From the NCBI RefSeq assembly GCF_000003815.2, contig NC_049980.1:2753179-2817178 (forward strand): a DNA stretch of 64,000 nt, in the 5' to 3' direction. This stretch comes from Branchiostoma floridae. Its lineage: Eukaryota; Chordata; Leptocardii; Amphioxiformes; Branchiostomatidae. Every line of letters starts with the position of its first letter. Positions within the stretch are counted from its first letter, which is position 1. Shown piece after piece: positions 12,470-63,374 of the stretch. The translations under genes and the position numbers were made by a program. The notes beneath the pieces were generated by a model that had not been told where the DNA came from, ran no database searches, and was given only the letters and a program-made list of their open reading frames with translations.

Positions 12470-14607
12470 ATCCTAGCCATCATCTCCATCCTGTTCATCG
12501 TCCTGTCGACGATAGCCCTTTCCTTGAACACTCTTCCCAGCCTCCAGGAAAGAGACGAGTTCAATCATATGACGGACAACCCTAAGCTGGCACATGTCGA
12601 GGCAGTCTGTATTGCATGGTTCACAATGGAATACCTTCTTCGCTTCATATCCTCCCCAAACAAGTGGAAATTCTTCAAGGGTCCCCTGAATATCATCGAT
12701 TTGACTGCTATCTTGCCGTATTACGTCACGATTTTTTTGACGGAGTCAAATCGCAGCGTCATGCAGTTCCAAAACGTCCGCAGAGTGGTGCAAATTTTTC
12801 GCATCATGCGGATCTTGAGAATATTGAAACTTGCGAGGCATTCTACCGGCCTGCAGTCCCTCGGTTATACGCTGAGACGGAGCTACAAAGAACTCGGACT
12901 ACTGATTCTTTTTCTTGCCATTGGCATCATGATTTTTTCTAGTTTGGTCTTCTTCGCTGAGAAGGACGAAAATCCACAGTTCAAGAGTATCCCAGAGGCA
13001 TTTTGGTGGGCCAGTATCACTATGACGACGGTCGGATACGGTGATATTTACCCAACGACGCTACTCGGGAAAATCGTGGGCAGCCTGTGTTGTGTGTGCG
13101 GCGTGTTGGTGATCGCATTACCTATTCCATCATTGTGAACAATTTTTCCGAGTTCTATAAGGAGCAAAAGCGACAAGAAAAGGCCATCAAGCGCAGAGAA
13201 GCGTTAGAGAGGGCCAAGCGCAACGGTAGCATCGTCTCCATGAACCTAAGGGACGCTTTCCAGAGAAGTATGGAGCTGCAGGACGTGGTGGTGGACACAC
13301 AAACAAACAGTCCTGACAGCTCCATGCACGACGCAGTGTCACAAATCCACACTCCCAGCGGGACGGAGAAGAGACAGCTCTTTTGCCCCGACACCGTCGG
13401 GAAGGGGTACGACGCCCCCGGGGGGCGCATCGCATCCACCCAAAGGGCAAACCCATACGAGTTGACCTACACGCACCCCCCTCCGTATGGGGTGTGCACC
13501 AGTCCGGTTGAAGGGGAGGACAGGGAGCGAGAAAGCGACAACGAAAGTTTTGCCAGTTGTACGACAGAATTTAATGAAACAGATACTCTGTTGGCTGAAG
13601 CAAGGGCAAGAGAAGACCCTCTGAGGAACTCTTTAAGTACTGAGAGGGCGCATCCACCACTCGTGGTCTCGTACAGTGACGGTGGAAGGTCTTCTTATTC
13701 ATTTGAGGAGTTGCAACTTAAGGATGGGTCTAGGAAAAGCCTCTTGAAACAAGGAGTGAGAGGAAAGCGGATTAAAGCCAAGGTACGGATTAGCGAGGAC
13801 GAGGAGGTACTGCGGACACCGCTTCCCATGGTGCGGACTCACAGCGCGCCACCCGCGCCACAGATCATTCTAAGTCCCTCAAACTTACAAGTGCCCAAGA
13901 AGGCGTACCCTCCATCTCCGCTACCTCCTGTTTTGGCCCCACAACATAGTCCCCTATACCTACCACAGGAGGACCAAACACAATCCACAGAGCCTCCTGG
14001 CGAAGACAGTAGGAACAGCACGGAGGCGGTATCCGACACTGACAGTTCCTCCTCTCCCAAACAGAAAACAAAGACAGCAAAGATGCGCCTGAAAGAAAAA
14101 CTCGGCAAAATGGGGTTGAGGAGTCGCCATGGCAACGGGCTTCCTAAGAAGAAAGTCTCCGCCGTGGGAAGGCGCTCCTCAACGTCCAGTTGTGAGGAAA
14201 CAGGCGCCCGGAACGGGAGCACGACGTCAGAGAGTGTGGGAAACGTTAACGAAAACTTGCAAAGTACCGTACCCGACAGTCCCTTACAATCTTCTCCAAG
14301 CGAAATAGAAGATGAGCCGAAGAGAAATCCTAGCAGGGTAAAATTCTTTGCGCAACGAGCCGACCCAGAGGTAGAACTGAAGGGTTTGAGTAAACATGAT
14401 GTCACAAGTGAAGTTCGGAACGAAATGTCGGAGTCAAAGGACGTCGCCTCCTCTGACGAACCTTTGCCTAATGGTAACCAAGATTCGTCGTCAAGCAGCG
14501 ACAAAAATGGTAACGTTGCTAACCACGTGACGCAAGCACAGCCCAAACTTGCGGTGCATGGGTCTGTCCATGACGATGGCATGGGGGACATGGAGACCAT
14601 GTGCTAG
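12470..14607 (+). CDS. KCNB: Kv2/Shab voltage-gated potassium channel, last coding exon (one-base frame break)
   Basis: Alpha subunit of a delayed-rectifier K+ channel of the plasma membrane; four subunits form the pore. The exon starts after the acceptor CTGTTCCAG at codon phase 0, the border I recall for vertebrate KCNB genes, where the remaining protein is one exon. In order: end of S1 ([13 protein letters not shown]), S2, S3, an S4 sensor rich in regularly spaced Arg ([18 protein letters not shown]), S5, the filter TVGYGD (codons 13028-13045), S6 with PIP (13121-13129), then the Kv2 signature [19 protein letters not shown] and a long Ser-rich cytoplasmic tail ending at TAG 14607. One base is missing after 13129. 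The frame then shifts from the 12470 frame to one that carries the rest. About 712 residues are encoded here, plus about 190 expected from the missing first exon. The tail carries SFASCTTEF (13546-13572), like the Kv2.1 PRC/FFAT segment. Paralogue KCNB1 versus KCNB2 cannot be assigned. Confidence 0.93.
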
Positions 14608-31983: not shown

Positions 31984-34593
31984 CTAATTCTCACGTCGCC
32001 AGTGTTTTTTTTTAAAAACCACACTTTTTCTTCTTGCCCTTGCCAGCAGCTTTTTTCCGATGTTTTTTGAGACATGAAAGATGTCAAATTGGTGCTGAAT
32101 ATCTTTATACTTTGTCTTCATAAGGGCGCCTACCCCTCTGTGTCTGTCTGTAGCCAGGCAATTGACTTCAATGCCATCTTCATCCAGCTTCTGAAGACAC
32201 CGATCCAGTCCCTCTTTCTCCATGGCTTGGGATGAGCCTGTCTCTGTACACTGCACCAGTTCCATTGCAATAATCAGTGAAGTTGTCTCCTCCATTATAG
32301 TATATGAACTATATTTTGCGTTATGGCCTGGTGAATCGCACCTTGCGTCGCCGACAACATCTACTGGCGCTTCTCTGCACAGGTCCAGTGCCATACTTCT
32401 ATCATACTGATTATAGTCATTTATTGCTGGCAGTGCATATGTCTTTTGAACCTTGAAGAACGTTTCCTGACTGAAAAACTCCAGTGCCTTAGCAAAGTCT
32501 TCAAACTTTTGTATGGATCCGCCAGCAAATAGAATTGCAGAGGAGATGAGCAGGTTTCCCCTTGCCATGCCTCTATCAAACGGCTGTGAGTACCAGGTGC
32601 CGTAATGTTGGTTACAACATGTCCATTCCACTATTATGGCTGACCCCCTCGTCCTCGTCTCAAAAGTCATGTCTGCGCAGCAAGTCGGGCAGCTCCTGAA
32701 CAGTTCCTGCAGTTGTTCTCCAAAAACGATAAATCGCTTCCCAACAAGTGAAGGTGCAGAAGATTCAGCTTCATCAATGTCGTCTTCTGATGATTCTTCT
32801 GACGACTCAGGATGGTAAGATGAGTCTAAATCAGCCTTTCCAGGGGTAGTCATAACTGATGATGGGGTCGCACAGAACGATGAGTTTAGCACAGGATTAC
32901 CAGGGGTAGTCATAACTGGTGATGGGGTGGCACAGAACGATGAGGTTAGCACAGGATTACCAGGGGTAGTCATAACTGGTGATGGGGTGGCACAGAACGA
33001 TGAGTTTAGCACAGGATTACCAGGGGTAGTCATAACTGGTGATGGGGTGGCACAGAACGATGAGTTTAGCACAGGATTACCAGGGGTAGTCATAACTGGT
33101 GATGGGGTGGCACAGAACGATGAGTTTAACATAGGATTCCTTGGTTTGATTGGGGTTGATTGCAGGAATTTCTGTTCTGTCTGAGTTGCAACTGTCATAT
33201 TTGCTGGGACAGGTTTGGAACTTCTACTTGCTGCAGCTGGAACTTGGTTGGAAACAGAACTGTATGCAGGAACTGGGCTGGAGACAGCATTATTTGCTGA
33301 AAAAAGGGTGGGGACATCTTGACTTGCTGGAACTGTGTTGGAGATCATGTTGGCTGGAATGAGTTCGAAAACTCTACTTGCTGCAACTGGAACACTACTT
33401 GCAGGAACAAGTTTGAAAACTGAGCTTGAGACAGCACTGCTTGTTGCGCTGCTTGTTGAAGCTGGCTTGGGTACAGCACTGCTTGCTGAAGCTGGCTTGG
33501 GGATAGCGCTCCTTGTTGAACTTGAAGCTGGCTTGGGGATAGCACTGCTTGTTGAAGCTGGCTTGGGGATAGCGCTGCTTGTTGAAGTTGGCTTGGGGAC
33601 AGCGCTGCTTGTTGAAGCTCGCTTGGGTACAGCACTGCTTGTTGAACTTGAAGCTGGCTTGGGTACAGCACTGCTTGTTGAAGCTGGCTTGGGTACAGCA
33701 CTGCTTGTTGAAGCTGGCTTGGGTACAGCACTGCTTGTTGAAGCTGGCTTGGGTACAGCACTGCTTGTTGAAGCTGGCTTGGGGGTAGCGCTGCTTGTTG
33801 AAGCTACCTTGGGGACAGCACTGCTTGTTGAACTTGAAACTAGTTTAGGGACAGCACTGCTTGTTGAACTTGAAGCTGACTTGGGTACAGCACTGCTTGT
33901 TGAACTTGAACCTGGCTTGGGGACAGCACTGCTTGTTGAAGCTGGCTTGGGGACAGCACTACTTGTTGAACTTGACGCTGGCTTGGGGATAGCACTGCTA
34001 GTTGAACTTGAAGCTGGCTTGGGGACAGCACTGCTTGTTGAACTTGAAGCTGGCTTGGGGATAGCACTGCTTGTTGAAGCTGGCTTGGGGATAGCGCTGC
34101 TTGTTGAAGTTGGCTTGGGGACAGCGCTGCTTGTTGAAGCTCGCTTGGGTACAGCACTGCTTGTTGAACTTGAAGCTGGCTTGGGTACAGCACTGCTTGT
34201 TGAAGCTGGCTTGGGTACAGCACTGCTTGTTGAAGCTGGCTTGGGGGTAGCGCTGCTTGTTGAAGCTACCTTGGGGACAGCACTGCTTGTTGAACTTGAA
34301 ACTAGTTTAGGGACAGCACTGCTTGTTGAACTTGAAGCTGACTTGGGTACAGCACTGCTTGTTGAACTTGAACCTGGCTTGGGGACAGCACTGCTTGTTG
34401 AAGCTGGCTTGGGGACAGCACTACTTGTTGAACTTGACGCTGGCTTGGGGATAGCACTGCTAGTTGAACTTGAAGCTGGCTTGGGGACAGCACTGCTTGT
34501 TGAACTTGAAGCTGGCTTGGGGACAGCACTGCTTGTTGAAGCTGGCTTGGGGATAGCGCTGCTTGTTGAAGTTGGCTTGGGGACAGCGCTCAC
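31984..34593 (-). CDS. Transposase-like protein, N-terminal half, with coding minisatellites
   Basis: An 869-codon open frame without an ATG start: it opens with GTG at the junction with the half palindrome at 34587. Residues 1 to about 390 are 10- and 12-residue Ser/Thr/Ala/Pro/Lys repeats (ASTSSAVPKP type). Residues about 480-585 are five 20-residue repeats (NPVLNSSFCATPSPVMTTPG type), followed by an acidic segment. From about 616 comes a conserved-looking part. It has CPTC and WTCCNQH, which look like a zinc site, and GTWYSQPF. GDARCDSPGHNAKYSS is at about 746-763, ATDRHRGVGALM at about 812 and HQFDIFHVSKNIGKKL near 833. The spaced Asp residues suggest an RNase H-like DDE transposase core; this is inference. 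The frame ends early (31984) in a Lys run, before the C-terminal blocks seen at 19470-20273. I recognise the family as an uncharacterised one of animal genomes. As it stands it is a fragment. Confidence 0.6.
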   Translation of the reverse strand: MSAVPKPTSTSSAIPKPASTSSAVPKPASSSTSSAVPKPASSSTSSAIPKPASSSTSSAVPKPASTSSAVPKPGSSSTSSAVPKSASSSTSSAVPKLVSSSTSSAVPKVASTSSATPKPASTSSAVPKPASTSSAVPKPASSSTSSAVPKRASTSSAVPKPTSTSSAIPKPASTSSAIPKPASSSTSSAVPKPASSSTSSAIPKPASSSTSSAVPKPASTSSAVPKPGSSSTSSAVPKSASSSTSSAVPKLVSSSTSSAVPKVASTSSATPKPASTSSAVPKPASTSSAVPKPASTSSAVPKPASTSSAVPKPASSSTSSAVPKRASTSSAVPKPTSTSSAIPKPASTSSAIPKPASSSTRSAIPKPASASSAVPKPASTSSATSSAVSSSVFKLVPASSVPVAASRVFELIPANMISNTVPASQDVPTLFSANNAVSSPVPAYSSVSNQVPAAASRSSKPVPANMTVATQTEQKFLQSTPIKPRNPMLNSSFCATPSPVMTTPGNPVLNSSFCATPSPVMTTPGNPVLNSSFCATPSPVMTTPGNPVLTSSFCATPSPVMTTPGNPVLNSSFCATPSSVMTTPGKADLDSSYHPESSEESSEDDIDEAESSAPSLVGKRFIVFGEQLQELFRSCPTCCADMTFETRTRGSAIIVEWTCCNQHYGTWYSQPFDRGMARGNLLISSAILFAGGSIQKFEDFAKALEFFSQETFFKVQKTYALPAINDYNQYDRSMALDLCREAPVDVVGDARCDSPGHNAKYSSYTIMEETTSLIIAMELVQCTETGSSQAMEKEGLDRCLQKLDEDGIEVNCLATDRHRGVGALMKTKYKDIQHQFDIFHVSKNIGKKLLARARRKSVVFKKKHWRREN
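32845..33135 (-). repeat. 60-bp coding minisatellite, about five copies
   Basis: Near-identical 60-bp units containing CCAGGGGTAGTCATAACTGG and GGCACAGAACGATGAG. Each encodes 20 residues of the 31984-34593 protein, so the frame is kept. Confidence 0.95.
33440..34590 (-). repeat. 30/36-bp coding minisatellite with higher-order repeat
   Basis: Units of 30 bp (GCTTGTTGAAGCTGGCTTGG type) and 36 bp (with an extra GAACTT) alternate. A marker variant (GTTGAAGTTGGCTTGGGG) at 33581, 34103 and 34565 shows blocks of 522 and 462 bp in which the same order of unit variants recurs. The 60-bp difference is two 30-bp units. All unit lengths are multiples of three, so every frame on both strands stays open. 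Confidence 0.93.
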
Positions 34594-34672
34594 TCGGTGG
34601 TTTTATTCGGTGGTTATAACAAAGGACCGGGCGTTATGACACCGTATACACCACGGGGCGGGTCATTAACCC
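34587..34672. mobile_element. Half copy of the 18870-19046 palindrome, TTAA on the right
   Basis: 86 bp matching the inverse of the left arm at 18870: CGCTCACTCGGTGG, then GGTCATTAACCC ending at 34672. TTAA follows at 34673-34676. The inner side joins the coding minisatellite directly, with CGCT shared at the junction. With 18870 it forms a pair of inverted ends enclosing 15.8 kb. Confidence 0.8.
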
Positions 34673-35577: not shown

Positions 35578-36588
35578 ATGAGAATATTGAGGTAGCGGCT
35601 GTATCATAAACATGGTTCCAACATGATGTCCCCGCTGACTTCTGGTCTCTTGATGGATACACTGTGTTCCGTAAATCGAGACATGACAAGTGGGGTGGTG
35701 GTGTTGCCTTGTATGTGAAGGATAGTATAGCTACAGGACAATTCACGACAATTGATGTACCTCCCGATGTTGAATGTATGTGGCTCATGTTAAGGCCCAA
35801 GCGCCAACCTAGAAAGATCACATCAATTGTTACTTGTGTAGTATACTCACCTCCTCAGTCTCCTCAGTCCCTCATAATGGGTGATTTTAATCACATGGAT
35901 GTGTCCGACCTATGTTCTCGGAATGAAGGTTAGACAGTACACTTGATCTGATCATAACTAATCTCACTGATTATTATAACCCTCCCTCTGCAACTTCACC
36001 TCTTGGTCGCGGTGATCACAACGCTGTGCTGCTGACACCGAAGCACCGGGCACTCCAGAACAAGTATTTTCATGACAAACACGACCGATGAAGGACTCCA
36101 GTATCCGGTATTTTGGTCAGTGGGTGACTCAGCACCAGTGGGACTGGAGGTGCCAGAAGAGCAGGGGACACAGGACAAAACTACTGCCTTCTACAGGACA
36201 TTACATCAGGCAATAGCAACACACTTTCCACTCAAGTCGGTGCCGATACATTTATATGACAAACTTTGGATATCACCCAGTATCAAGTCTTTGATGAAGG
36301 CAAGACAGCGGGCTTTCAACCAACAGAACTGGGAAGACTGGCGCAAACTCCGGAACAAGATCATGAGGGAGATCAAGTCCGCCAAAAAACAGTTCTACAA
36401 CACCAGAGTTAAGAACCTTAAGAAGGAAAATCCAAGAACTTTGTTCAAGGAGTTGAATGTGCTGACGGGCAGCTGAAGGAAGATGACAGTTCGAGTGGAG
36501 GGAATGGACCCAGAAGACCACAGCGGCATGGCAAATAAAATCAAAGAGACACTTACCAACATCACAAAATCCTTACCACCGTTGAACT

Positions 36589-44200: not shown

Positions 44201-47200
44201 TAGTACTGTAACAGTTGTGGTCATAGTTAATAACTTGAAAGTCGAATGCCATTGATGGGTCAGAAATCATCCATGACTGGTCAGAAAAGCCTCAGCCTTA
44301 TTCAGAAGCCATCAAACATCCCTCAAAAACCCAACAGAAATTAAAGACTCTGACTGGTGATTGTCAGTGTTAATGAGATGGGTCAGGTTCATTTTGCAAC
44401 CAGCAATGATGGCATTTTGTCACCTCCCGCCATCTGTCCGCGTCAAAGACAATCTCTGACCAGTCACTGACGATCACATACCCGTCATCATTCTGTCAGT
44501 GTCAATTTTCTGATTCAGGGAGAAATGTCAGGTTTCTGTTTGATCAGAGTTTTCAAATCATATGCAGGCTGCGGTAAAATAACAGCATAGTGGTGGGAAA
44601 ACAAATTTGCCTCACGTGTGGTAGAAAATTGCCAAATACAAAAGAATTGATGGAATTAGGAGACGGCAACTTTGCCTGCACCCTGCCCAGTGCAGACGGG
44701 GAAATTAGTCGGAAAAAACTGTCCAGTCTGAAAAGATGGTCTGAATGGGGGTTTCTGGTCATGCTTAAAGCTCAATTCAGACAGTGCTTAATAAAAATGC
44801 AACCGGTGCAATGGCCTGCAACTGGTGCAATGGCCTAGTGGGTAGAGTGTTCGCCTTGCATTCGGTAGGTCGTGAGTTCGATCCCCGGCCGAGTCATACC
44901 AAAGACTCTAAAAATGGTACATGCTTCTTTCTCTGCTAAGCACTCAGCACTTATGAGGAAGAGTATGGAAGTTAAACACACATCACTACCAGCGGACCAG
45001 CCCCCTGCTGTAGTGGCTTGTACATGTGTGGCCCAAGGGCTTCGAAGTGGGGATGGGCGCCACCCTACGCGTCTGTAGATGCATGGGCAAACTTTAACTT
45101 TAACTTTAAACTTAATAAAAACAAGTACTTATTTATGGCCTGGTTGACAGTTCTGCAATGTTGCATTACATGTTGTGTCAGTGACATCCATATCAATTTC
45201 TGCCAGCCATGTAAACGTCATCTCTCAACCAGTTTGTATAATTCATGCCAGGGGGAGTGGGGGGTGAAGGAAAAAAATGAAGCGGGGGATGGCTTTGGAA
45301 AAATTTTTAACCTGAAGTGAGGGCCTAGGAAATGTTTTTACTATTTTCTAACCCTCAGTCAACCAGCCCTCCTTGGTAAGAGCAAAACAGAAAATTGTAA
45401 CCAGCATACCTGCATATCTGAACAAAGACACCAATAGTTAGAGAAGTTGGCAATGACACTTGTTGACTGACCTACACAACTGTAGAAGGCTATAAACCAT
45501 GTGGTTGAGCTGACACTGCTGGCATCACGACTGGCCCACAAGGCTCGCAGCTGGATCAGCTTACTGGTCATGGACAGTGGAAGCACCAAACTCTGCAAAT
45601 GCAAGTTGGCAATGTCAACAATAAGCATGCCATCTGAATATACATGACTGTATAATGTAGTGAGTTAGTACGATGCTAAACTTCCTTCCAACACAAAGGT
45701 ATACTGTCTGCCAGAAGGTTGTCGGTGCCTTCCACCTGGGACAGGAGTTCCGTCAGCTCTTTGTCCGCTTTCAGGTCATCTAGCAGAGGCAGCAGCACCA
45801 TTTTTTAGTTGTGGGGGCAAGAATTTTGCATATCACCAAATCGAGCGCCAAAGGCGTGACCATTCTAGGGGTGTCCGGGGGCATGCATCCCCGGAAAATA
45901 TCTAAAAAATCTGAAAATCTAAACCCTACCTAAATCTAAATGCTATTTACTGTATTTTGAGGGGCTGATTTTACTGCCAGACCAAAGCCCCGGTCACAAA
46001 GCGTGTGCGATTCCTTGTGATTCCTTGCGATGCGCGGTATGAGCGCAGTGCATCGTAAGTCAGGGTAGAATCGGATGCAATAGTTTAAATATATAAAGCC
46101 GTGGTCACAAAGCACATAGTGCATTGTACGATGAGGTCATAAGAGCGTTCCTGCGTCAATCGCAGTAAATCATAGTAAATCGGGGAGCGTCCTATGACGA
46201 AAATAGAGCTGAAATGGACTTTGAACATGTTCAAAGTTTCTCCATCATCGTACGATTTTTATTGCCCCCATAGCAGACTTTATTAAGGCCATGTCTTTTC
46301 TGCTGATGAGGTTAAAGATTCATAAGTTTTTAGCATGTTGTGATAGTTTCAGTTTTCCCTGATATTGTCGATGTTTACGAAAAGGGAAAATATATCAGTC
46401 GCAACTGTTAACAGTAGCAATTGTAGAATGGCCTGCCTATCACGCACAGGTGATGTAGACAATTGTTTGATCGCTATACATGCATGTGAGTTCATCATTA
46501 GATCAAATCTCAGCTCTCGGGTCAGTTTACCATAATTGTAATAACCATGGGGGCAACTCGAACATATAAAGGCAGGCTCTATGAGTCGGAAATATATATG
46601 ATATAATGCTTATGATATGATTTTTGTATGATGGCATCTTTTGTTGATAGCATATCATGATACAATCTTCGAAAAAGCCTGACTCATGGAGCAAGCAGGC
46701 TGAGGAAACCATACCAGTATACTCGCGCTTGATTTGAACTTTTGTTTGTAATACTCATGTTGTTATGGTCTCTTTTACTTTATTTTTTACAGTAAAATAT
46801 ATTATTGACAATAGGAAGGTATTCAACAGCTATGTCCACAATTTGTTGGTTAAAGCAGTGCAAAAGCAGTCAGGCTTCAGAAGAGACACTAGTACTGGTG
46901 AAAACTCATACGATGCAGCTGGAAAAATTTTGAACATCATCCGATGTGTTGCGATGGATGATTTTGCTTACGATTTTGCTGTGATTTACCGGAATATGCC
47001 ATCGCAAGAAATCGTACGCGCTTTGTGACCGGGGCTTAAGCTAACTTCAATGACATTTCTATTGAAAAATTTTAAATGCACATTGGTTTAGCTTTTAGTT
47101 ATTGAGGTCAACGCCCCCAACATATAGCAGAATCTGATGTACAATTTTAATGTGAGATAATTAACTTGATTATATGCTGCTCCATTCTAAGGAATATCAC

Positions 47201-50200
47201 AATAATTCAATCTAATCCAATATTATGGCTATTAGGAACTTTTAACAGGTATACAAATGTATGGCATAGCTTACACAGGTCCGTTCATTTTAACATCCTA
47301 ACATCCAACCTTTTGGATACAAGGCATTACCAGCAGCAAAATGCAAAAATACCGACAAAAGACTTATCTGTCTTCTCAGAGATATGATACTTACAATCAT
47401 GATATTGGAAACTGCTGAAGAGGTTGAGAGCACCAAAACAATAGCAACATATCTGCATGCGTTTTTATAAAAGGAAAATATTATGATGATAATTCTGAAT
47501 TAAGTAAGTAAAATTTGTATGTCTACATTTTTTTGTACATACACATTATTATTTGGCAACACTCTGCATTACAAGTAAGAATGTTACAAAAAAACAGTAT
47601 ATGGTACTTTATATATCTACTGCAGGGGTGAAAGAAATTCAGCTACATGTAAGGTCCAGGTCCAGAAGATCAGGTACAGGTCTATACCTGAACCGGGACC
47701 TAACTATCTGTGAAAACATGTGAATGGGAGGTTCTTAAAACAATGGTCCGTTTTGCTACAAAGGTTTTGTGGGGTATCTGACATCCAGTGACATTTTAAA
47801 ACTATAGTTCCAAGACCCCATACATGTACGTTCGCCAAATGCTATCCTTTACAACTGCTGTACAAATTGTTTGCCATTTATTATGCAAATGAGGTCCTCA
47901 TTTGCATAAATAAAATTATTTGATCATCTTCTTTACCAAACAACAGATGTACACAATCTACTATATTAAGAAAGATTTTAATCGCATTTTCTGATAATTT
48001 ATGCAAATGATGACCTCATTTACATAATGTTCAACGATGTTCACCTGTACATAACTTCCAATTGCTACAAGTATGAAGTTCCAGTCATTTACCACAACGA
48101 CATTATAGCACATATGCATACTGACATTATAGAACGCCAGATATGTTATGTAATGTTATGACGTCAGCGGTATGCTAATGAACCACTACTGTATCACCAA
48201 TATGGTAATGAGGGAAGTGTCCCGGATGTTCTCCGCCATCTTGTTGTCAAGCCAGTTAGAAGTACATTAAACCGAGTTGCGTTCATCTCCACACCTTGCG
48301 GTCCCTGTAGTTAACTACTGACGGAATATTAATACAATCCATCCAGGCATTCTTGAGTTATGCTGGTCTTCTACAAAGTTTACATATATAGTACATACAC
48401 AGTGTCACGCTACCCAAAACATAACCTTCTCGGCGAACATAATTATATCCTACTCAATGATCTGTAAACACCACTTACTGCCTCTGTTTTACATACACGT
48501 AGAATAGAAAGTGAGTGAGCTAATCCATCTTATTTTCACTCCTCAAATAAGATCTAAACTTTGAGCTAATTTGACTTTTGAAGTCCAACTGTGTCCTAGA
48601 CAAAAAGGATACCCTGTAATGTAAAGTAAGGCCTCCATCATAGGTCTGTCTCCAAAGTGCAGGATGATCAAGACAAGAACCATGTCTAAGGTGAAAATGG
48701 AAGAAACAGAGTTTAGCAGTAAGACGGGTATACAGAACAGCCAATTCAGGAATCTAGGAAACAGTTAACTGTTACCACACAGATTATAACAGAATTGTTT
48801 GATCCAATACTATTCTACATCATGCATGTGCATTATCATGTACAGTCAAACCTGTCTTAAGCGGCCACTCAAAGGGACAGGAGAAATATGGCCACACTAG
48901 ACAGGTGACCACTATATAGAAAATGTTGATCAATTGACCATGAGCAAGCTACATGATTTCAGTTCCCACTAATGAGGGTCTGCATGCCTTTTTCCGTTAA
49001 GCGTTACGAGCCATTTTAATTCACCGTTAATCGTTACCGACCCGCTCTAATTCAACGTTAATCGTTATCGGTATATTCATCGTGAAGCGTTATTGGTCGT
49101 TTTAATTCAACGTTAATCGTTATTTGTTATCCCGAATTCACCGTTAAGCGTTACCAAGAAATTCTTCGTAACCCGTTATATACACGAAGTCTAATGCCAG
49201 ATAGAACCCCTGAGAATGCAGGAAATGGCGTTTCAAAGGGTCCATATTTCAAAATTTCTCCGAGCCTCCCGGCATTCGGCTCCAGACAGGGTAAAATATG
49301 TTGTGGAAGCGTTGCCTTCAAAAACTTTATCACTCATACAGATTTCAGTGTCAAGCTTAGTTTCAGGCAAAACGTACTCCTAAAATGCAGAAAATGAGGT
49401 TTCTCCGGACCTCTCTTGCGACGGCTTGCGCCCTTGGCGCTTACGACGACATGGCGAAAATATGTTAGGGGCGTGGGTTTTCGCACAAAAAAATCTTTTC
49501 TCTCAAATCTAATTTAGTTTCGTCTCACAGCAAAATCTGTCCTTCAAAAGTCCAGATTTTAAAATTTCCCCTGACTTAAATTGCAACGTCTCGTGCCTTC
49601 CGAGCTCGAATCGAAATGGTAAAATATGTCGGGAGCTCTGGGGCCAAAGCCATAACCATGTGTGATTTGATGAAAATGTTAAAATCAACCTAGCTTAGTC
49701 GGTCGGCAAAATTTGCCGAAAAATGCAGGAAAAAGCATTTAAGAGGGTCTTGATTTTAAAATTTTCCCGGGGAAGCATACCCCCGGACCCCCCTGGGATG
49801 CGTCGCGCCTTTGGCGCTCCATGTGCTGAAACAATAGTTCAATCCCTCCATAAGTAATTTGCTACCGCCGTCTCTGTGGCTGGCCGGGAACTCTAGATCT
49901 GCCTCCGTCAATTTACAGATGTCATAGACATTGTCCCTCTCATTCCTCCGGGTTCTGGTCACCTTTTGCTTCTCACAATGTCATTAAACGGATATTTTCA
50001 CCCATTGATATAACTACTCTAGCGCTGTATGAATAGGAATGTTACTTAAGTGCTATGCATTGTAACTCCTTCTGAATTTACCGTTAAGCGTTACCGGGCC
50101 TCCTGAATTTACCGTTAAGCGTTACTGGGCCTCCTGAATTCACCGTTAAGCGTTACCAAGGCCCCCCCATGCAGACCCTCACTAATCTTTCTCACCAAGT

Positions 50201-53200: not shown

Positions 53201-56200
53201 TAAAGTAAACTTTCTAAGCATTTCATTATATAAGGCATCTCTGAAGCTATCTACATTTCAAATATATGCAGCATGAAAATCCGTCAACCCATTCCCGAGT
53301 TATTCCCCTCTAAAGGGATGATGCAACTACACATGCCTGTAGAAAAATTCCTGAAATGCCTGCGAGATTTTGGGAATTCTTGTCAAACGGTCGCAAACTA
53401 TACTATAAGGCTCGACCCTGAGGCATAGCCAAAAATAATATGTGAAAGAGCAAAAAAGAAAATATATTGTGGGCACAAGTACAGAAAATTCAGGTCTAGT
53501 CATTTATGTTTATATTTACGTATCTGACTCCCACTGGTGTTTTCAAATCCTAAGTGTAATCAAGGCTAGCTACCTCAGTCTATACCTTTGACTGTAGAAA
53601 CATGGTTGGTACAAATGACTATAAACTCTACTTGACTTCGCTCGTTATTCTCCTTGCCCTGTAAGCTCCAAAACGCCTGTTGACATAGTGTGTCCATTAG
53701 TGTTAGCAAAACATAGATGTTATTTTTGCTGACACCTCGTTTATTAGTCTATGGGTGCCATGTTTTTTGTTTCTTTGCAGATTATAGTGAAGTGCATGAT
53801 AGGAAGGGGTTTTACCATTTTGATGTGAAGGGGTGTTTTTCCCCTTATTTTGGTGATCTTTAATTGGCATGGAAAAGTGAAAGCGTGGTGGTTCTGTGGC
53901 CTTGTTAATGTTACTGTAAATGCATTTAAGTTCACAGGGATTTAATTTCGCGGTAGCGAGAAAATGGACTTTTCGCGGTGGTTTTAATTTCGCGGTAGCA
54001 CCACGCACTGTAGTCTCTTACTGTTATGGAAAAATATTCGCGGTGGTTTTAAATTCGCGGTGAAGCGGCCGCCGCGAAAACCGCGAACATTAATCCACCG
54101 CGAACATTTCTGCATTTACAGTATTACCTTCGCTAAGAAGATAATATTTACGGTTATGCTGTAGTGTTAGGTGAGTCTTTATGTAGGTCAACAGTATAAC
54201 TGGAGAACTGATTGATGGATCTTCATGATACTTGGTATTTGAGTAGCGATTGGGAAAAGAAAGAGTTCGAAAATGGTTCCCCTGATATTTTCTGTCGGTG
54301 AGCACATTTGCATTTATTATGTTATCAGTATTTTTTTACGTTTAGATTGTTTGCATTAGAAATTCAATAACATGTACATAGCAAGTTCCTTTTATTCTCT
54401 TTCCTTTTTCCCTTTGGCAAGATATATAGGTTGTTTTTAATTGTCCCGTGGTGCACTGACTATGGTATGGGTCTGCATGTATGTCAACAGCAGAACTTGA
54501 GATGGTGTGGACTTGACAAGTACCCGTTCAAAAAGGTTAAAGAATGATTTACCTGCTGTTTTCCTTCAGTGCTTCAGCATTTGTTTATGTACATGTATGT
54601 GTGTGTTTTTTTCTTTGTGGACAACATTACTCGAGGTTAGTTGGGATGGATAAAATGGAATTTCAAACCACTACAAACACATGTTCATGCAGTCATTTGC
54701 TATTGGGGTAGGTACTACATGGTGTCTGGGTGTGTCACACTGACAGTACACAGCCACATGAGGGTCTACTGGTGTCTGGGTGTGTCACACTGACAGTACA
54801 CGGCCACATGAGGACTACTGGTGTCTGGGTGTGTCGCACCGACAGTACACGGCCACATGAGGGCTACTGGTGCCTGGGTTGTGTCACACTGTCAGTACAC
54901 GGCCACATGGGGGCTACTGGTGCTTGGGTGTGTCACACTGTCAGTACATGGCCACATGGGGGCTACTGGTGCCTGGGTGTGTCACACCGACAGTACACGG
55001 CCACACGTGGGCTACTGGTGCCTGGGTGTGTCACACTGACAGTACACGGCCACATGGGGGCTACTGGTGCCTGGGTGTGTCACACTGACAGTACATGGCC
55101 ACATGGGGGCTACTGGTGCCTGGGTGTGTCACACTGACAGTACATGGCCACATGTGGGCTACTGGTGCCTGGGTGTGTCACACAGACAGTACATGGCCAC
55201 ATGTGGGCTACTGGTACCTGGGTTGTGTCACACTGACAGTACATGGCCACTTGAGGACTACTGGTGCCTGGGTGTGTCACACTGTCAGTATACGGCCACA
55301 TGGGGGCTACTGGTGCCTGAGTGTGTCACACTTGACAGTACATGGCCACATGTGGGCTACTGGTGCCTGGGTGTGTCACACAGACAGTACATGGCCACAT
55401 GTGGGCTACTGGTGCCTGGGTGTGTCACACAGACAGGACATGGCCACATGTGGGCTACTGGTGCCTGGGTGTGTCACACTGTCAGTACACGGCCACATGA
55501 GGGCTACTGGTGCCTGGGTGTGTCACACTGTCAGTACACGGCCACATGAGGGCTACTGGTGCCTGGGTGTGTCACACTGACAGTACACGGCCACATGAGG
55601 GCTACTGGTGCCTGGGTGTGTCACACTGACAGTACACGGCCACATGTGGGCTACTGGTGCCTGGGTGTGTCACACTGACAGTACACGGCCACATGAGGGC
55701 TACTGGTGCCTGGGTGTGTCACACTGACAGTACACGGCCACATGAGGGCTACTGGTGCCTGGGTGTGTCACACTGACAGTACACGGCCACATGGGGGCTA
55801 CTGGTGCTTGGGTGTGTCACACTGACGGTACACAGCCACATGAGGGCTACTGGTGCCTGGGTGTGTCACACTGTCAGTACACGGCCACATGGGGGCTACT
55901 GGTGCCTGGGTGTGTCACACTGTCAGTACACGGCCACATGGGGGCTACTGGTGCCTGGGTGTGTCATACAGACAGGACATGGCCACATGTGGGCTACTGG
56001 TGCCTGGGTGTGTCACACTGTCAGTACACGGCCACATGAGGGCTACTGGTGCCTGGGTGTGTCACACTGTCAGTACACGGCCACATGAGGGCTACTGGTG
56101 CCTGGGTGTGTCACACTGTCAGTACACGGCCACATGGGGGCTACTGGTGCCTGGGTGTGTCACACTGTCAGTACACGGCCACATGGGGGCTACTGGTGCC

Positions 56201-59200
56201 TGGGTGTGTCATACAGACAGGACATGGCCACATGTGGGCTACTGGTGCCTGGGTGTGTCATACAGACAGGACAGGGCCACATGAGGGCTACTGGTGCCTG
56301 GGTGTGTCACACTGTCAGTACACGGCCACATGAGGGCTACTGGTGTCTGGGTGTGTCACACTGTCAGTACACCGCCACATGAGGGCTACTGGTGTCTGGG
56401 TGTGTCACACAGACTAGACAGTACACCTGGAATTTTAGTTTGGTAAAGATATACTGCACTTTAATCTAGCCGTTACCCTTCAAAAACAACCTGGTATGTT
56501 ACCCTTTAAAAACAAATGTCATATAATATACATGTACATGTACTTGCAGCAGTCTCACCTTGCATATTTAGGAAGAGGTATTCTGCATAGGTACTGAGGG
56601 GATATTCATTCACAAAATGGTAGCACATCATGACTGCATAGCTGTATGGTGAATACACAATGTCATGGTCAAATGAGTAAAAAAAGCTGATACTTACAAA
56701 AATAAGAGAGATCTTTTAACCTATCAATGAATGGGTGCTTCTGAGTATAGTGTAAGCACAAAGCTACCCATAACCTGAAAGTACCTTCCTTCAGAAATAT
56801 GTGAAGATTGCAGGTATGAACATATATCATTGGAGAGGTTCATCAGTCACGTATGCATACAGTTACAACAATTTTCTTTCAATCAATGACTGTTTTGTAG
56901 TACATACCTCCCAAATTTTCAATGTCTACCAGCACATCCAGCACATCTTCATCATGGGGAATGACCTTAGTCCTAGTCTCAGTTCTCACGAGGCAGATGA
57001 TCCACGCAAACCTGACCTAGTTTCATATTCTCTCGCAAGAACTGAGACTAGGTCATTCCCCATGACGATTCCCCATGATGAACATGTGCTGGTAGACATT
57101 GAAAATTTGGGAGGCATGTACCGCTACTGTACCTTTACAAAACAGTCATTGATTGAAGAAAATTGTTGTAACTAAATGAACATATATGATTTTGATTAGC
57201 AATGATTACTGTGCAATTGTATAATTCATGGGGAATAAAGCTTACCAATCATACTTAAAATAACCCTTATCTCCAGTGTGACTGGGGGCATTGGCATAAG
57301 TTGTTGAGGTGGGTAGGGGTGGAGTCTGATTCACAATTTTTAAATGGGAACACGCTGGGAAAGGAAAATTTGCCTGACTTCACCCCCCACTTATGCCAAT
57401 GCCCCCAGAGAGGCCAGTGAAGGAGGCTACCATCATGAACTGTGGAAATCAATCTGAAATTTACAATTTTATTGGCCAATATCGAATCCAAGTGTCAACA
57501 ACAATGTTGTCTTGTGTCATGCATACATATATATCGTTGAATTTTGTGAAATCACACGGGCACGTGCCAGACTGCAGTCTCATGAGATTGGTGCCGGGAT
57601 TATAATGTCAGGCATGGTATATCATCACTATGTGTGTTTAGTAATTGTCCAACCTTCAAGACCGCTTAGATTTCATACTAAAGGCAACTTTTTGGGGCCA
57701 ACTTATATTTGTGCGCTGGCATCAGTTTTGGGGTTCCCAGAGGATGTCATCCATATATTATATAATTTATAGTGGAATCATGATCAATTAGCCAAACTGG
57801 AAAAAACAGTTGAACATGTCAGAGTCATTATCTTGGATGCAAATGTTTCATTTAGCATATCATGATTACATCTTTTTGCTCATCATATTTTACCAGGAAT
57901 AATTCAAACATTTCCAGGGCCATGTTCTCAATAAGTTTACCCATCAACTTTCATTGAAATCGAACTTCTTTCAATTTTTTTCAATCCATCTCTGATCTAT
58001 ACTTCAAATGCATATCTTCACAAAGTATGTGGAGAAGGATAACCTCAAGCCAACCATTCACACTTATGCCACATCTTCAGAAAAGCCGCTGAAGCTGCAT
58101 GTTCCCCGTTTAGGAACTTTATTTGAACCAACACACAACAAGTGTGAACGGTTGGCTTGAGCAAGGAGGTTTAACCTCCTTGGCTTGAGGTTATTCTTCT
58201 CCACATACTCTACATATCTTCATGCAAATTATGATTTTAAAACCTTTCTCCTGGACCTATGGTATTTGGACCTACTATCCATTAATGGAACCGGGTTGGG
58301 CTGATTATTTGGAATGATTTGCCCTGGGGATTGGGGAAGCTCCTTGGAGTTGGGTAATCTCCAAGCAGATCCTATGGTAGCATAATAAGATAAGTTACTA
58401 GTATACTAGAGTACGTATCAAAATATGGAAAAGGAGCTACCAATACCATTATGCACACTCCTAGGCTGGCAACACTCCTTTGCCAGCTTCTGATATTATC
58501 TTATAATCTCAAAGCAGATCTTGCCGTGGCATTAAAGAGTATCATAAGCTTGGGATGGAGTTTAACCAGCAGAGGAGTTTTATTGGCCACAGCTGAGATG
58601 CAGCTACCGTAGGATCTTGGAGATGTGCAGAGGCCGTCAATCATAAATTCAAATGGCCTTTAATACAATAGTTTAAGGTTATATCAGCAAGTCTACGAAA
58701 GCTTCACCTTCCGCACTGGTATTCCAGTGCTGATTCAATGGTCAAAGCCCCCTCAGCACTGGTTTTCCAGTGCTGAAGAAAGATCAGCACTGGTTTTCCA
58801 GTGCTGAATGGCTCTGTTCCAGTGCGGAAGCTCCGTCAGGACTGGAATTCCAGTGCTGAAGACTGTTTCAGCACTGGTTTTCCAGTGCTGAGCTCATTTC
58901 AGCAGTGGTTTTCCAGTGCTGGACTGCTGTCAGCACTAGTTACCCAGTGCTGAACTCGCTGTCAGCACTGGAACCGAGTGCTGATATACAAAAGCTTCAC
59001 CTTCCGCACTGGATTTACCAGTGCTCAGGGACATTTCAGCACTGGAACATCAGTGCTGAGGGATCTTCAGCACTGGAAAACGAGTGCTGACGTCTTTTCA
59101 GCACTGGAATGATCTTCAAACCAGTGCTGAAGTCTTTCCAGAACTGCAGTGTCCTAGTGATGAGAGGGGTACTTGGCGAAGATTTCAATCAGAAAATAAG

Positions 59201-59981
59201 TAACCTGATGCCAAGAAACCGAAGTTGTGCAGATGTGCAATTGAAACTTGACATATGTATAATGTAAACGAGATAGATATGATTTTTTTAAAGTACTGAG
59301 AGCGGCACTAGGCATAAATTCTAATATAGATATGGTCCAAGTTCATCAGAAGTCCAAATCTGAGTTATTTCATTTGTTGTGTGACGTGTTGGAATTGGAT
59401 TATATATCTAAGATAGAATGCCATTAACAAAGGATTGCAAATTTTATTGTGTGTGATTTTGAATGATAATTACATTTACAGCCCTTCTGGAAATGATTTG
59501 AGTGGCCAGCACGGAATATCGTCCGAGCACTCGGTTTCCAGTGCTGACGCCGGCTTTTCCAGTGCTGAGAGCGCATCAGCACTGGAAGCCCAGTGCTGAC
59601 GAACGTTCAGCACTGGAAATCCAGTGCTGAAGCCATCTTCAGCACTGGAACCGAGTGCTGAAAAAGGAGGGTGAAGCTTTCGTAGTTTTGCGTTATATCA
59701 TCACATTTTCTACATAAAAGTGCGTCAGAACTCCAATCTCGCTATCGATTTGCATAGGACAAAGGGACACGTCCACACAAAAATTGTGCAAGATGAAAAT
59801 TATGGTCTGAAAGTTTTCTTACGTACCAAAACCATTCTAGCAGAGTACTTTGCAAACTAACGCCCCTTGCGCTCTTGGAAGACCATATGGCGCCGATTTG
59901 AGGTAGTTTGAGCACAACGCAGAAAACTATACAGCTGAGAGACGCGAAGGACACCAAGACTTCAGAAGCAGCAAACGCCAT
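41118..59981 (-). CDS. SLC66A3: SLC66A3 (PQLC3) PQ-loop protein, complete, seven exons
   Basis: Coding exons, in - strand order: 59981-59827, 56641-56559, 48685-48613, 47452-47395, 45592-45472, 42764-42723, 41224-41118. The lengths (155, 83, 73, 58, 121, 42, 107) sum to 639 nt, that is 212 residues and a TAA, with GT/AG at every border and all phases matching. The human protein has about 202 residues and aligns almost without gaps from memory: VLKLPQIGAIW with SARGVSLQS, NEYPLSTYAEY, SKLIQLRALW, FTTIVQTGDIP. The first PQ motif is Pro27-Gln28. In the second loop the Pro is Ile (Ile136-Gln137), as human SLC66A3 also lacks PQ there. Seven membrane helices are expected. The SLC66 family includes lysosomal cystine and cationic amino acid exporters; the substrate of SLC66A3 is not established to my knowledge. 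The ATG at 59981 has an AAC upstream and a G after it, a fair Kozak context. The introns are packed with mobile elements. Confidence 0.93.
41555..41700 (-). repeat. Dispersed repeat related to 28001-28300, with (CA)n
   Basis: The - strand gives CTCCATGAAAAATGGAG, a GT-rich run and TCTGTGTTTCCAGATTTTTG, in the order seen at 28001. Outside SLC66A3 exons, in the last intron. Confidence 0.5.
42723..42764 (-). CDS. SLC66A3: SLC66A3 exon 6, 42-nt microexon
   Basis: Acceptor CATGTCTCAG, donor CCTG|GTAAGT. It encodes the 14-residue stretch around RIFTTIVQTGDIP that exactly fills the gap between exons 5 and 7 when aligned to human TRIITTLMTTNDFT. Confidence 0.92.
42990..43875. mobile_element. MITE-like inverted pair, GATTATATGGATGACATCC ends
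   Basis: GATTTGATTATATGGATGAC near 43000 is the inverse of GTCATCCATATAATCAAATC near 43845. Both continue into related poly-A/T stretches and AAAATTG blocks. A fragment of the same end is at 57690-57760. In SLC66A3 intron 5, near the 42-nt exon. Confidence 0.6.
43535..43640 (-). repeat. Short dispersed repeat, inverse of the 31148-31290 type
   Basis: CAGGTCCAGGTTCACG, CTCTGGACCTGAACGGGACC and CTGGTACATGTACAAACCCC are the same modules as at 31148 and 47630. Confidence 0.45.
44798..45110 (+). mobile_element. tRNA-derived SINE, family A, full length
   Basis: Flanked by an exact 11-bp duplication CTTAATAAAAA (44787-44797 and 45111-45121). The A box (TGGCCTAGTGGG, 44831) and B box (GTTCGATCC, 44876) are present. 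The body is shared with 36589-36863 and 63375-63649. The tail is (AACTTT)n. An 18-bp duplication of GGTGCAATGGCCT lies at the 5' end. In SLC66A3 intron 5, antisense to the gene. Confidence 0.9.
45472..45592 (-). CDS. SLC66A3: SLC66A3 exon 5
   Basis: Acceptor CATTTGCAG; reads SLVLPLSMTSKLIQLRALW, then RDASSVSSTTWFIAFYSCV, the second PQ-loop region; donor GTAG|GTCAGT. Ends in phase 1. Confidence 0.93.
45690..45806 (-). other. Unrecognised coding-like stretch in SLC66A3 intron 4
   Basis: On the - strand an ATG near 45803 opens a frame reading MVLLPLLDDLKADKELTELL, then a possible donor CCCAG|GTGGAAG. The composition looks protein-like, but it does not fit the SLC66A3 reading frame and no partner exon was found. 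It could be a captured exon scrap. Confidence 0.25.
45812..45915 (-). repeat. GCCTTTGGCGCT / CCCCCGGA repeat module
   Basis: The inverse matches 49755-49825 (TTTTCCCGGGGAAGCAT, CCCCCGGACCCCC, CGCGCCTTTGGCGCTC). It is a dispersed module also present inside the nested element at 48974-50180. Confidence 0.5.
45985..47037. mobile_element. DNA transposon with AAGCCCCGGTCACAAAGCG ends
   Basis: The 19-bp termini are exact inverses (left at 45985, right ending at 47037). The interior is collinear with 1-1632 without the LINE and MITE inserts of that copy, so it shows the uninterrupted form. No transposase frame. Located in SLC66A3 intron 4. The target duplication is unclear. Confidence 0.78.
47395..47452 (-). 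CDS. SLC66A3: SLC66A3 exon 4
   Basis: Acceptor GCATGCAG; reads YVAIVLVLSTSSAVSNIMI; donor ATT|GTAAGT. Phase 0 at its end. Confidence 0.9.
47630..47710 (+). repeat. Short dispersed repeat with AGGTCCAGGTCC
   Basis: GCAGGGGTGAAAGAAATTCAG, AGGTCCAGGTCCAGAAGATC and ACCTGAACCGGGACCTAAC; third copy of the 31148 type. Confidence 0.45.
47870..48190. repeat. Dispersed repeat with octamer palindrome
   Basis: Partner of 10785-11160. At 47881-47909 two 14-bp arms TTATGCAAATGAGG and CCTCATTTGCATAA form an exact palindrome around one base. In SLC66A3 intron 3. Confidence 0.65.
48613..48685 (-). CDS. SLC66A3: SLC66A3 exon 3
   Basis: Acceptor CACCTTAG; reads MVLVLIILHFGDRPMMEALL; donor ACAGG|GTATCC, leaving phase 2. 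It encodes a helix and a short loop, matching the human VILLLCIFHFNG position. Confidence 0.9.
48843..50531. mobile_element. pogo/Tigger-like MITE, interrupted
   Basis: It begins CAGTCAAACCTGTCTTAAGC and ends with the inverse CAGATTTGACTG, with TA on both sides (48841-48842, 50532-50533). GCGGCCAC and GTGGCC motifs recur near both ends. Removing the nested element leaves about 476 bp. In SLC66A3 intron 2; its left end is 157 bp from exon 3. Confidence 0.75.
48974..50180. mobile_element. Nested element with GAGGGTCTGCATG ends and CCGTTAAGCGTTAC subterminal repeats
   Basis: Left end GAGGGTCTGCATGC, right end GCATGCAGACCCTC, 6-bp duplication ACTAAT on both sides (48968-48973, 50181-50186). Near the left end AATTCACCGTTAAGCGTTAC-type units occur about five times, and near the right end three times. 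The interior has diverged copies of a module with AAAATTTC-CCGG and GCGCCTTTGGCGCT. No transposase frame. It interrupts the pogo-like element. Confidence 0.82.
51011..51707. mobile_element. AT-rich MITE, GAGTCCATTCCAAGACACC ends
   Basis: GAGTCCATTCCAAGACACC at 51011 and its exact inverse ending at 51707 are flanked by TA. The interior is AT-rich with repeated AAATGGTA motifs. In SLC66A3 intron 2. Confidence 0.85.
51708..53913. other. SLC66A3 intron 2, no further feature
   Basis: Nothing recognised apart from a (TGAA)n patch at about 52023-52042 and a run of Gs at about 52571-52582. Confidence 0.4.
53914..54121. mobile_element. MITE with CTGTAAATGCA ends, TTCGCGG-rich
   Basis: It begins CTGTAAATGCA and ends TGCATTTACAG between TA dinucleotides. 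The interior repeats AATTTCGCGGTAGC and TTCGCGGTGGTTTTAA, with a GCGGCCGCCGCGAAA core. The 30810 fragment has a similar end. Confidence 0.82.
54722..56413 (+). repeat. 49-bp minisatellite, about 34 copies
   Basis: The unit contains CTGGGTGTGTCACACTG, CAGTACACGGCCACATG and GGGCTACTGGTGC. Variants (ACAGACAGGACATGG, ACTGTCAGTACACGG) recur in the same order about every 245 bp in the right half, showing block duplication. Because 49 is not a multiple of three, the many open frames cycle through phases and are not genes. In SLC66A3 intron 2, ending 146 bp from exon 2. Confidence 0.97.
56559..56641 (-). CDS. SLC66A3: SLC66A3 exon 2
   Basis: Acceptor CATACAG; a second AG eight bases downstream would break the frame. 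Reads YAVMMCYHFVNEYPLSTYAE; donor CAAG|GTGAGA. It lies 146 bp beyond the end of the 49-bp minisatellite, which is in the next intron. Confidence 0.92.
56861..57173. repeat. Long inverted repeat (foldback), arms about 125-135 bp
   Basis: AGTTACAACAATTTTCTTTC (56861) and CCCAAATTTTCAATGTCTAC on the left recur inverted up to 57173, with a loop near 56988-57037. Small insertions differ between arms (CCAGCACAT duplicated on the left; GACGATTCCCCATGA on the right). No target duplication seen. In SLC66A3 intron 1. Confidence 0.75.
57282..57408. mobile_element. Short MITE, CTGGGGGCATTGGCATAAGT ends
   Basis: The first 20 bp and last 20 bp are exact inverses. No clear target duplication. In SLC66A3 intron 1. 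Confidence 0.75.
57690..57760 (-). repeat. Fragment of the 42990-43875 MITE-like family
   Basis: CATCAGTTTTGGGGTTCCCA and GAGGATGTCATCCATAT match the inverse of 43005-43060. Confidence 0.55.
58027..58207. mobile_element. Palindromic MITE, TATGTGGAGAAGGATAACC ends
   Basis: TATGTGGAGAAGGATAACCT at the left and its near-inverse ending CTTCTCCACATA at the right. A second inverted block TCAAGCCAACC-x-TTCACAC lies inside, and GGAGGTTTAACCTCC is a self-palindrome near 58165. Confidence 0.75.
58345..58632. repeat. Cluster of ATCTCCAAGCAGATCC motifs
   Basis: AATCTCCAAGCAGATCCTAT (58353), AATCTCAAAGCAGATCTTGC (58505) and the inverse CTACCGTAGGATCTTGGAGA (58605). Likely remains of a dispersed repeat. 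Confidence 0.45.
58687..59691. mobile_element. Foldback element of CAGCACTGG hairpins with 9-bp target duplication
   Basis: The flanks GTTATATCA at 58678-58686 and 59692-59700 are identical, an apparent 9-bp target duplication. The ends are inverted: GCAAGTCTACGAAAGC at the left, inverse of GCTTTCGTAGTTTTGC at the right with two mismatches, continuing into TTCACC. The left 0.5 kb holds about 12-13 hairpins of the form CAGCACTGG-N4-CCAGTGCTG at 30-40-bp spacing, and the right 0.2 kb holds about five. A second AAAGCTTCACCTTCCGCACT terminus-like block lies at about 58990. The centre (about 59160-59500) is AT-rich and unique. No protein frame. The 9-bp duplication suggests a Mutator-like (MULE) origin, by inference. 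It lies 127 bp inside intron 1 from SLC66A3 exon 1. Confidence 0.88.
59827..59981 (-). CDS. SLC66A3: SLC66A3 exon 1
   Basis: MAFAASEVLV start, a hydrophobic helix, then KLPQIGAIW and SARGVSLQSTLLEWF. The donor is GTACGT. A stronger-looking GTAAGA lies four bases further but would shift the frame into exon 2. Ends in phase 2. Confidence 0.92.
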
Positions 59982-61882: not shown

Positions 61883-63374
61883 AGTGTCATACCCCCTGTA
61901 GTGTCCGTACCCCCTTGTAACCCACGTCAAATCGAGGTACCATTCGTCCTCTTGTGTAACGCTCGCTCCTTAGCGAACAAATTAGATGAATTTCATACTG
62001 CATTAAAATCTGTCATTATTGCAACCTAAATAAGATAGAGGCTGACTATCACTTTATTATGGACTGTACTTTGTACACCAACAAAAGAAACGTCCTCTTC
62101 GATTGCATGCAAGATATGTTCCCTAACTTCCATTATATAAATAGTAAGGAAACATTCATATTCTTTATGCAACTAGATAAATCCTGTATTATTGATCACA
62201 TCTGCCCTTATGTTTACAACTGTATTAAGAAGCGAGAAGAAGTTGAACCTGTACATACTAGCGCATAGTAGTCTCTGTAGATGAAATTGTGCCTTATGCG
62301 CTACGACCTGTACTTAGCTTGTTGGAGCATAAATGTACAATAAAGGTCTTCCATTCATTCTTAATGAGAATATTGAGGTAGCGGCTGTATCATAAACATG
62401 GTTCCAACATGATGTCCCCGCTGACTTCTGGTCTCTTGATGGATACACTGTGTTCCGTAAATCGAGACATGACAAGTGGGGTGGTGGTGTTGCCTTGTAT
62501 GTGAAGGATAGTATAGCTACAGGACAATTCACGACAATTGATGTACCTCCCGATGTTGAATGTATGTGGCTCATGTTAAGGCCCAAGCGCCAACCTAGAA
62601 AGATCACATCAATTGTTACTTGTGTAGTATACTCACCTCCTCAGTCTCCTCAGTCCCTCATAATGGGTGATTTTAATCACATGGATGTGTCCGACCTATG
62701 TTCTCGGAATGAAGGTTAGACAGTACACTTGATCTGATCATAACTAATCTCACTGATTATTATAACCCTCCGTCTGCAACTTCACCTCTTGGTCGCGGTG
62801 ATCACAACGCTGGGCTGCTGACACCGAAGCACCGGGCACTCCTGAACAAGTATTTTCACGACAAACACGACCGATGAAGGACTCCAGTATCCGGTCTTTT
62901 GGTCAGTGGGTGACTCAGCACCAGTGGGACTGGAGGTGCCAGAAGAGCAGGGGACACAGGACAAAACTACTGCCTTCTACAGGACATTACATCAGGCAAT
63001 AGCAACACACTTTCCACTCAAGTCAGTGCCGATACATTTATATGACAAACTTTGGATATCACCCAGTATCAAGTCTTTGATGAAGGCAAGACAGCGGGCT
63101 TTCAACCAACAGAACTGGGAAGACTGGCGCAAACTCCGGAACAAGATCATGAGGGAGATCAAGTCCGCCAAAAAACAGTTCTACAACACCAGAGTTAAGA
63201 ACCTTAAGAAGGAAAATCCAAGAACTTTGTTCAAGGAGTTGAATGTGCTGACGGGCAGCTGAAGGAAGATGACAGTTCGAGTGGAGGGAATGGACCCAGA
63301 AGACCACAGCGGCATAGCAAATAAAATCAAAGAGACACTTACCAACATCACAAAATCCTTACCACCGTTGAACT

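Follow-up and report, generated by a model that had tools for sequence, protein, structure and literature searches.

The locus and the insertion

The window, that is, the whole stretch of 64,000 nucleotides of Branchiostoma floridae DNA analysed here, carries on its minus strand a gene of the PQ-loop family, which we take to resemble SLC66A3. The open frame of its exon 1 matches the PQ-loop family in Pfam above the cut-off (PF04193, E=4e-06), and a probable exon 2 closes an intron 1 of approximately 3.2 kb (Table 1). No Pfam PQ-loop match was found in the frames around this probable exon 2 or around a later candidate exon at 45362-45664. Just past the probable exon 2 lies a 49-bp minisatellite (54715-56414; 34.6 copies, 93% matches).

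In the vicinity of exon 1 we found an element of 1005 bp (58687-59691), bounded on both flanks by the exact 9-bp sequence GTTATATCA. Inverted ends flanked by an exact target-site duplication, as in a cut-and-paste DNA transposon, are present; that a transposon bearing terminal inverted repeats inserted here is the firm part of our result. Among the 370 inverted pairs of 12-mers in the window (40-6000 bp apart, words with fewer than three letter types excluded, and up to 12 further outer bases tolerated if at least 60% of them matched), two were bounded by an exact direct repeat of 9 bp or more, namely the element itself and a 192-bp neighbour at 58021-58212. At its inner edge the left terminal inverted repeat merges into a half-site, CCGCACTGG, the first of the array described below. 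An inner copy of the end sequence shows two mismatches to the 16-base end word, and this word, at up to three mismatches, is confined to the element within the window. The first-pass annotation, made from the letters of the DNA, had reported the identical flanks with a 9-bp duplication, the inverted ends and a unique AT-rich centre, and each of these is borne out (Table 1). It had also placed the element 127 bp from exon 1; the adjacency holds, but 126 bases separate the right target duplication from the last base of exon 1, and because the gene lies on the minus strand, the element sits in intron 1 and not upstream of the gene. No effect on the gene, which the first pass had thought possible, is apparent from the sequence. 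The inner end copy, the site steps of 31, 42 and 52 bp described below and the minus-strand orientation of the gene were absent from the first-pass annotation.

Table 1. Features of the element and of its host gene, with positions counted in the window
Feature	Position	Strand	Remarks
Left 9-bp target-site duplication GTTATATCA	58678..58686	+	identical to 59692-59700
Right 9-bp target-site duplication GTTATATCA	59692..59700	+	
Left terminal inverted repeat, 26 bp	58687..58712	+	23/26 against the reverse complement of the right end
Right terminal inverted repeat	59666..59691	-	23/26 against the left end
Outer left arm, 8 palindromes and a lone half-site at 58819	58710..58984	.	parsed sites; 31-bp tandem period
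Inner, directly oriented copy of the end sequence, lacking the element's first 7 bases	58987..59012	+	25/26 against 58694-58719
Inner left arm, 4 palindromes (13-nt centre in the last)	59003..59130	.	
Unique centre, A/T 226/341	59165..59505	.	no Rfam match
Right arm, 4 palindromes and a lone half-site at 59559	59524..59661	.	
Coding part of host exon 1, ATG to splice donor, 155 bp	59827..59981	-	ATG at 59981; GTACGTAAG donor
Probable host exon 2, bounded by acceptor and donor	56559..56641	-	frame continues from exon 1; recognised by eye

The 192-bp neighbour is a MITE-like insertion that also lies in this intron, at a distance of 474 bp from the element. Its 30-nt inverted arms are 97% complementary, and it is flanked by an exact 10-bp repeat, CATATCTTCA; intron 1 of the PQ-loop gene hosts two insertions with duplications of 9-10 bp. 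Elsewhere in the window, a different element (48974-50180) has the ends GAGGGTCTGCATG and CATGCAGACCCTC and flanking ACTAAT; close to each end it carries a directly oriented 31-bp tandem repeat, and it apparently lies within another element, whose TACAGTCAAA-type ends are at 48841 and 50533. A pair of almost identical open frames (36036-36476 and 62846-63262), neither with a Pfam match above the cut-off, perhaps represents two copies of one mobile-element fragment, and an open frame at 12416-13138 belongs to a voltage-gated ion-channel-like gene (Ion_trans, E=1.4e-50).

An array of palindromic sites in the arms

The arms of the element are crowded with one short word. Counted on both strands, the window has 23 occurrences of CAGCACTGG, and the element accounts for 22 of these; 100 dinucleotide shuffles gave a mean of 0.62 and a maximum of 4. 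When half-sites were collected at no more than two mismatches in nine to the consensus and then paired, the arms resolved into 16 palindromes of the type TCAGCACTGG-N3..5-CCAGTGCTGA, one of which has a centre of 13 nt, plus two lone half-sites, in agreement with the 16-18 short hairpins counted in the first pass; six weaker words resembling half-sites, each with two mismatches (58914, 59138, 59139, 59154, 59303 and 59507), were excluded. The arms are unequal, the left being approximately 475 bp long with 12 palindromes and the right approximately 170 bp with 4, and 90-nt stretches of the two are 80% complementary; the left arm also has a 31-bp tandem period (TRF). Long inverted arms of unequal length that are made of repeated short units are those of a foldback-type composite; a transposon that has arms of this type and duplicated 9 bp of target on insertion is supported.

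Once the sites were masked, no clear inverted homology between the arms was found. The best registers were 19/41 for the left against the inverted right arm, 22/50 for the left against the direct right arm, and 19/37 (direct) and 19/35 (inverted) for the outer against the inner left arm; each of these is the best of many offsets, so we make no claim as to which part of an arm was copied from which. Read in direct orientation, the lone half-sites at 58819 and 59559 share a common layout, 11-10-7 in a 28-nt gap, with spacers that differ, and this shared layout stays unexplained.

Conservation in the array was judged between the repeats of one element copy and not between elements. In the 32 half-sites of the 16 palindromes, 306 of 320 letters are at consensus, and five of the 14 changed letters hit the second-last G; the mean pairwise identity of 0.917 is inflated, as the half-sites were picked for their likeness to the consensus. 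A check on exact half-sites, in which a partner was looked for 12-14 bp away without a threshold, found one within two mismatches for 19 of the 22, against 0.5% at random places; three had none, namely both halves of the palindrome with the 13-nt centre and, in addition, the lone site at 59559. Among the ten spacers of 7-8 nt, with longer spacers set aside, pairwise identity is 0.33 over the first seven bases and 0.30 over the last seven, compared with 0.24 for shuffled letters, values reached by 0.2% and 2% of 2000 shuffles, respectively. Spacers are near chance, if slightly more alike than chance, with a trace of shared descent left, which implies that part of the array arose by tandem duplication and that its steps are not all independent.

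The first-pass annotation had held that loops vary while stems are kept, and this is half right, for their letters do vary (identity 0.413 against 0.421 in shuffled loops, no more alike than composition gives) but their composition is retained, with A/T at 52 of 59 positions (13-nt loop excluded) against 61 of 129 across 15 stretches of spacer (the one with the inner end copy was left aside). With letters treated as independent, Fisher's test gives p ~6e-8 for this difference, or ~3e-6 when distinct loops only are counted. Four of the 16 loops read TTTT.

Helical phasing

Measured from centre to centre, the palindromes follow one another at 43, 31, 52, 32, 31, 31, 31.5, 42, 32.5, 31 and 35.5 bp in the left arm and at 52, 31 and 31.5 bp in the right. 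At 10.5 bp per turn, 13 of these 14 steps fall within 0.1 turn of whole turns, the sole misfit being the step of 35.5 bp, and 10.5 is also the best period in the range of 8-14 bp. As shared descent may account for many of the 31-bp steps, the redrawing was limited to the other five (43, 52, 42, 35.5 and 52), at random values between 25 and 60 bp, and 0.9% of 20,000 draws reached the observed phasing (p ~0.009); the test was devised post hoc, once the spacings were known, and is to be held lightly.

The insertion anatomy, the site array, the pattern of constraint and the phasing are all seen in this single copy. The exact palindrome pattern with a 4-nt loop was present in one stretch of viral_contigs (L001, that one palindrome only) and in six stretches of genome_contigs, with one palindrome listed in each. 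In viral, bacterial and archaeal sequence, apparently without this organism, the palindrome array was not met, and the end sequence of the element had no match in viral_contigs, a collection that apparently lacks this organism as well.

Superfamily and known relatives

Judged by duplication length and architecture, MULE is the best-fitting superfamily. Its members make target duplications of 8-10 bp, usually 9, and the duplication here is exactly 9 bp; duplications of Merlin elements are 8-9 bp and those of P and hAT elements normally 8 bp. The description of the element in the first pass as a non-autonomous MULE-type foldback stands as regards duplication length and arm architecture, but no transposase was found within it, the list of open frames of at least 110 aa containing none for a transposase in this 1-kb element. 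A minus-strand frame of 872 aa at 31984-34602, with many AVPKPASS-type repeats, has near its end weak matches to Mutator/MULE transposases (E 0.0085 and 0.013), below the Pfam cut-offs; this is a weak MULE frame within the window, but the end word of the element is found only inside the element.

The comparisons with known elements below follow the available portions of the cited reports. Muta1 of Aedes aegypti, a MULE and type 2 foldback, makes 8-9-bp duplications and carries nine 12-bp repeats with 3-4-bp spacers (PMC5225508). It shares with the element the composite arms, the short subterminal sites with short spacers and the duplication of 8-9 bp, and resembles it further in having non-autonomous derivatives with variable centres (PMC5225508). 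Its 12-bp repeats, however, are described as standing in tandem and the palindrome described for it is a 10-bp terminal motif (PMC5225508), whereas the element has head-to-head palindromes of ~24 bp in 31-bp steps. Likewise, Tm1, a Mutator/foldback element of root-knot nematodes, makes mostly 9-bp duplications, has arms of unequal length with a variable number of a short repeat, and exists in many short non-autonomous copies, but its repeat is a tandem one of 13-15 bp and its 7-bp terminal motifs are asymmetric (PMC3169594).

More distant likenesses are found elsewhere. The FB (foldback) element of Drosophila melanogaster has 27-31-bp repeats flanking a middle region in unequal numbers of blocks, but these are blocks of five repeats with end sequences of 467-479 bp, and head-to-head palindromes are not described in the portion available (PMC7642927). 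Rehavkus combines a 9-bp duplication with inverted repeats of 26-400 bp and a minisatellite near an end; it differs in its PHD-finger transposase, absent from the present copy, and in a minisatellite which that portion describes before the 3' end only (PMC6446971). In Galileo of Drosophila, foldback-like arms hold several binding sites for the THAP domain of the transposase, as seen by footprint and gel shift, but Galileo belongs to the P superfamily and its three sites lie ~70, 570 and 710 bp from the end (PMC3688188). Certain plant MULEs, the 3-TIR elements, carry their terminal repeat twice at one end, in which they resemble the element, yet their terminal repeats are long and a palindrome array is not mentioned in the part available (PMC3310237). 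A foldback with phased head-to-head palindromes was not met in the literature searched, taken in part and without Repbase and most subscription papers. On these comparisons Muta1 and Tm1 are apparently the closest known designs, of which the head-to-head phased sites would be a variant.

Hairpins, protein sites and other explanations

What, then, are the palindromes kept for? One answer, which we consider improbable, is that they are retained as single-stranded DNA or RNA hairpins, or were made and corrected by foldback synthesis. The left arm, taken as single-stranded DNA, does fold at -149 kcal/mol, where 100 shuffles average -70, and the recurrent TTTT loops would suit a hairpin; however, a strong fold is expected here because palindromic repeats pair whatever their use, and no known structured RNA was matched at the Rfam gathering score between 58600 and 59800. 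Were the stems kept or mended as hairpins, changes should go together in the two halves. Across the 16 palindromes none of the 14 changed letters is compensated, a number of changes that has low power, and with each left half given a random right half the stems pair no better than shuffled partners (146/160 paired positions; shuffled mean 146.8, sd 1.0, maximum 149). The first-pass annotation had offered two origins for the hairpins, transposase sites or products of foldback synthesis. The latter finds no support, as copying between arms predicts matching changes in both; the former fits what can be read from the sequence. The half-sites, rather than the hairpins, seem to be conserved, although 14 changes give little power and leave room for weak selection on pairing. 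The absence of compensation, together with pairing at the shuffled level, suggests that half-sites are maintained independently of one another, as protein sites would be, and the pattern is that of putative protein sites of two-fold symmetry whose middle is flexible. That the element is dead and its array a passive minisatellite, with stems that seem kept only through tandem duplication, is in our view very unlikely: the 31-bp TRF period and the slight excess of spacer identity point that way, as does the neighbouring element at 48974-50180 with its own 31-bp tandem repeat, but duplication would have copied the spacers too, and these are near chance next to half-sites of far higher identity (even allowing for the ascertainment that inflates it), while the loops hold their A/T content at a letter identity no higher than shuffled.

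If the array is bound by a protein, this need not be a transposase. A second element-encoded protein, e.g., an anti-silencing factor acting as VANC does on the VANDAL motifs of Arabidopsis, could occupy the sites, and we regard this as quite unlikely; to our knowledge, VANC occurs only in plants. The available portion of the report on VANC21 describes its binding to a 9-bp motif densely arrayed in VANDAL21, from which it is clear that repeated motifs need not be transposase sites, but those motifs lie in one orientation and in noncoding regions (PMC5735166), whereas the sites of the element stand head to head in both arms. Furthermore, the terminal repeat and the first half-site overlap, as would be predicted if the sites served to recognise the ends. 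The same architecture might also belong to a different transposase superfamily (e.g., Merlin, P or hAT), a reading that overlaps with the site array instead of excluding it and that we judge unlikely. More than one superfamily has evolved foldback arms, Galileo being related to P (PMC4079207, PMC3688188, as far as their available portions go), but it is for the MULE foldbacks Muta1 (PMC5225508) and Tm1 (PMC3169594) that duplications of 8-10 bp together with repeat-rich arms are reported in the portions available.

A proposed role for the arms

We favour, with a probability of about 0.6, a non-autonomous MULE-type foldback whose arms are a phased array of two-fold-symmetric sites, probably for transposase; the superfamily, the bound protein and the effect on transposition are what we infer. 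In this proposal, a non-autonomous transposon has inserted into intron 1 of the PQ-loop gene, duplicating 9 bp, and its arms would act not as hairpins but as a double-stranded array of TCAGCACTGG-(mostly A/T)-CCAGTGCTGA sites. By analogy with the site-bearing arms of Muta1, Tm1 and Galileo, each palindrome would probably bind a DNA-binding domain as a dimer, the domain most likely belonging to the transposase of an autonomous relative, and with steps of ~3, 4 or 5 helical turns the bound dimers would come to lie on one face of the DNA. Dimers aligned in this way might recognise and join the two ends with higher specificity and avidity, the phased row marking the ends for synapsis. The site array draws support from the terminal repeat, whose inner end is a half-site, and from the preservation of an inner copy of that repeat.

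Other transposons offer precedents in both directions. According to the available portion of the report on piggyBat, a palindrome is bent by its transposase and has an A/T-rich centre as in the element, and a subterminal site is inhibitory and lowers activity (PMC11707139), which means that extra sites need not help. Additionally, extra Hermes transposases bound inside the ends were judged, in the part of that work available, unlikely to support transposition in cells (PMC10368747). Only as a tentative possibility do we suggest that, in this MULE-type foldback, the transposase may coat the arms as a regular one-faced oligomer, with the number and phase of the sites, and not the short terminal repeat, giving the ends their specificity.

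The purpose of the long repetitive arms of foldback transposons is not settled, and within the literature examined, itself available in part, Galileo is the foldback-like case in which repeated arm sites have been shown to be bound (PMC3688188). The sequence of the element points to units kept as half-sites in phased double-stranded DNA and not as hairpins, and the idea of a transposase array along the arms is directly testable on a short synthetic arm.
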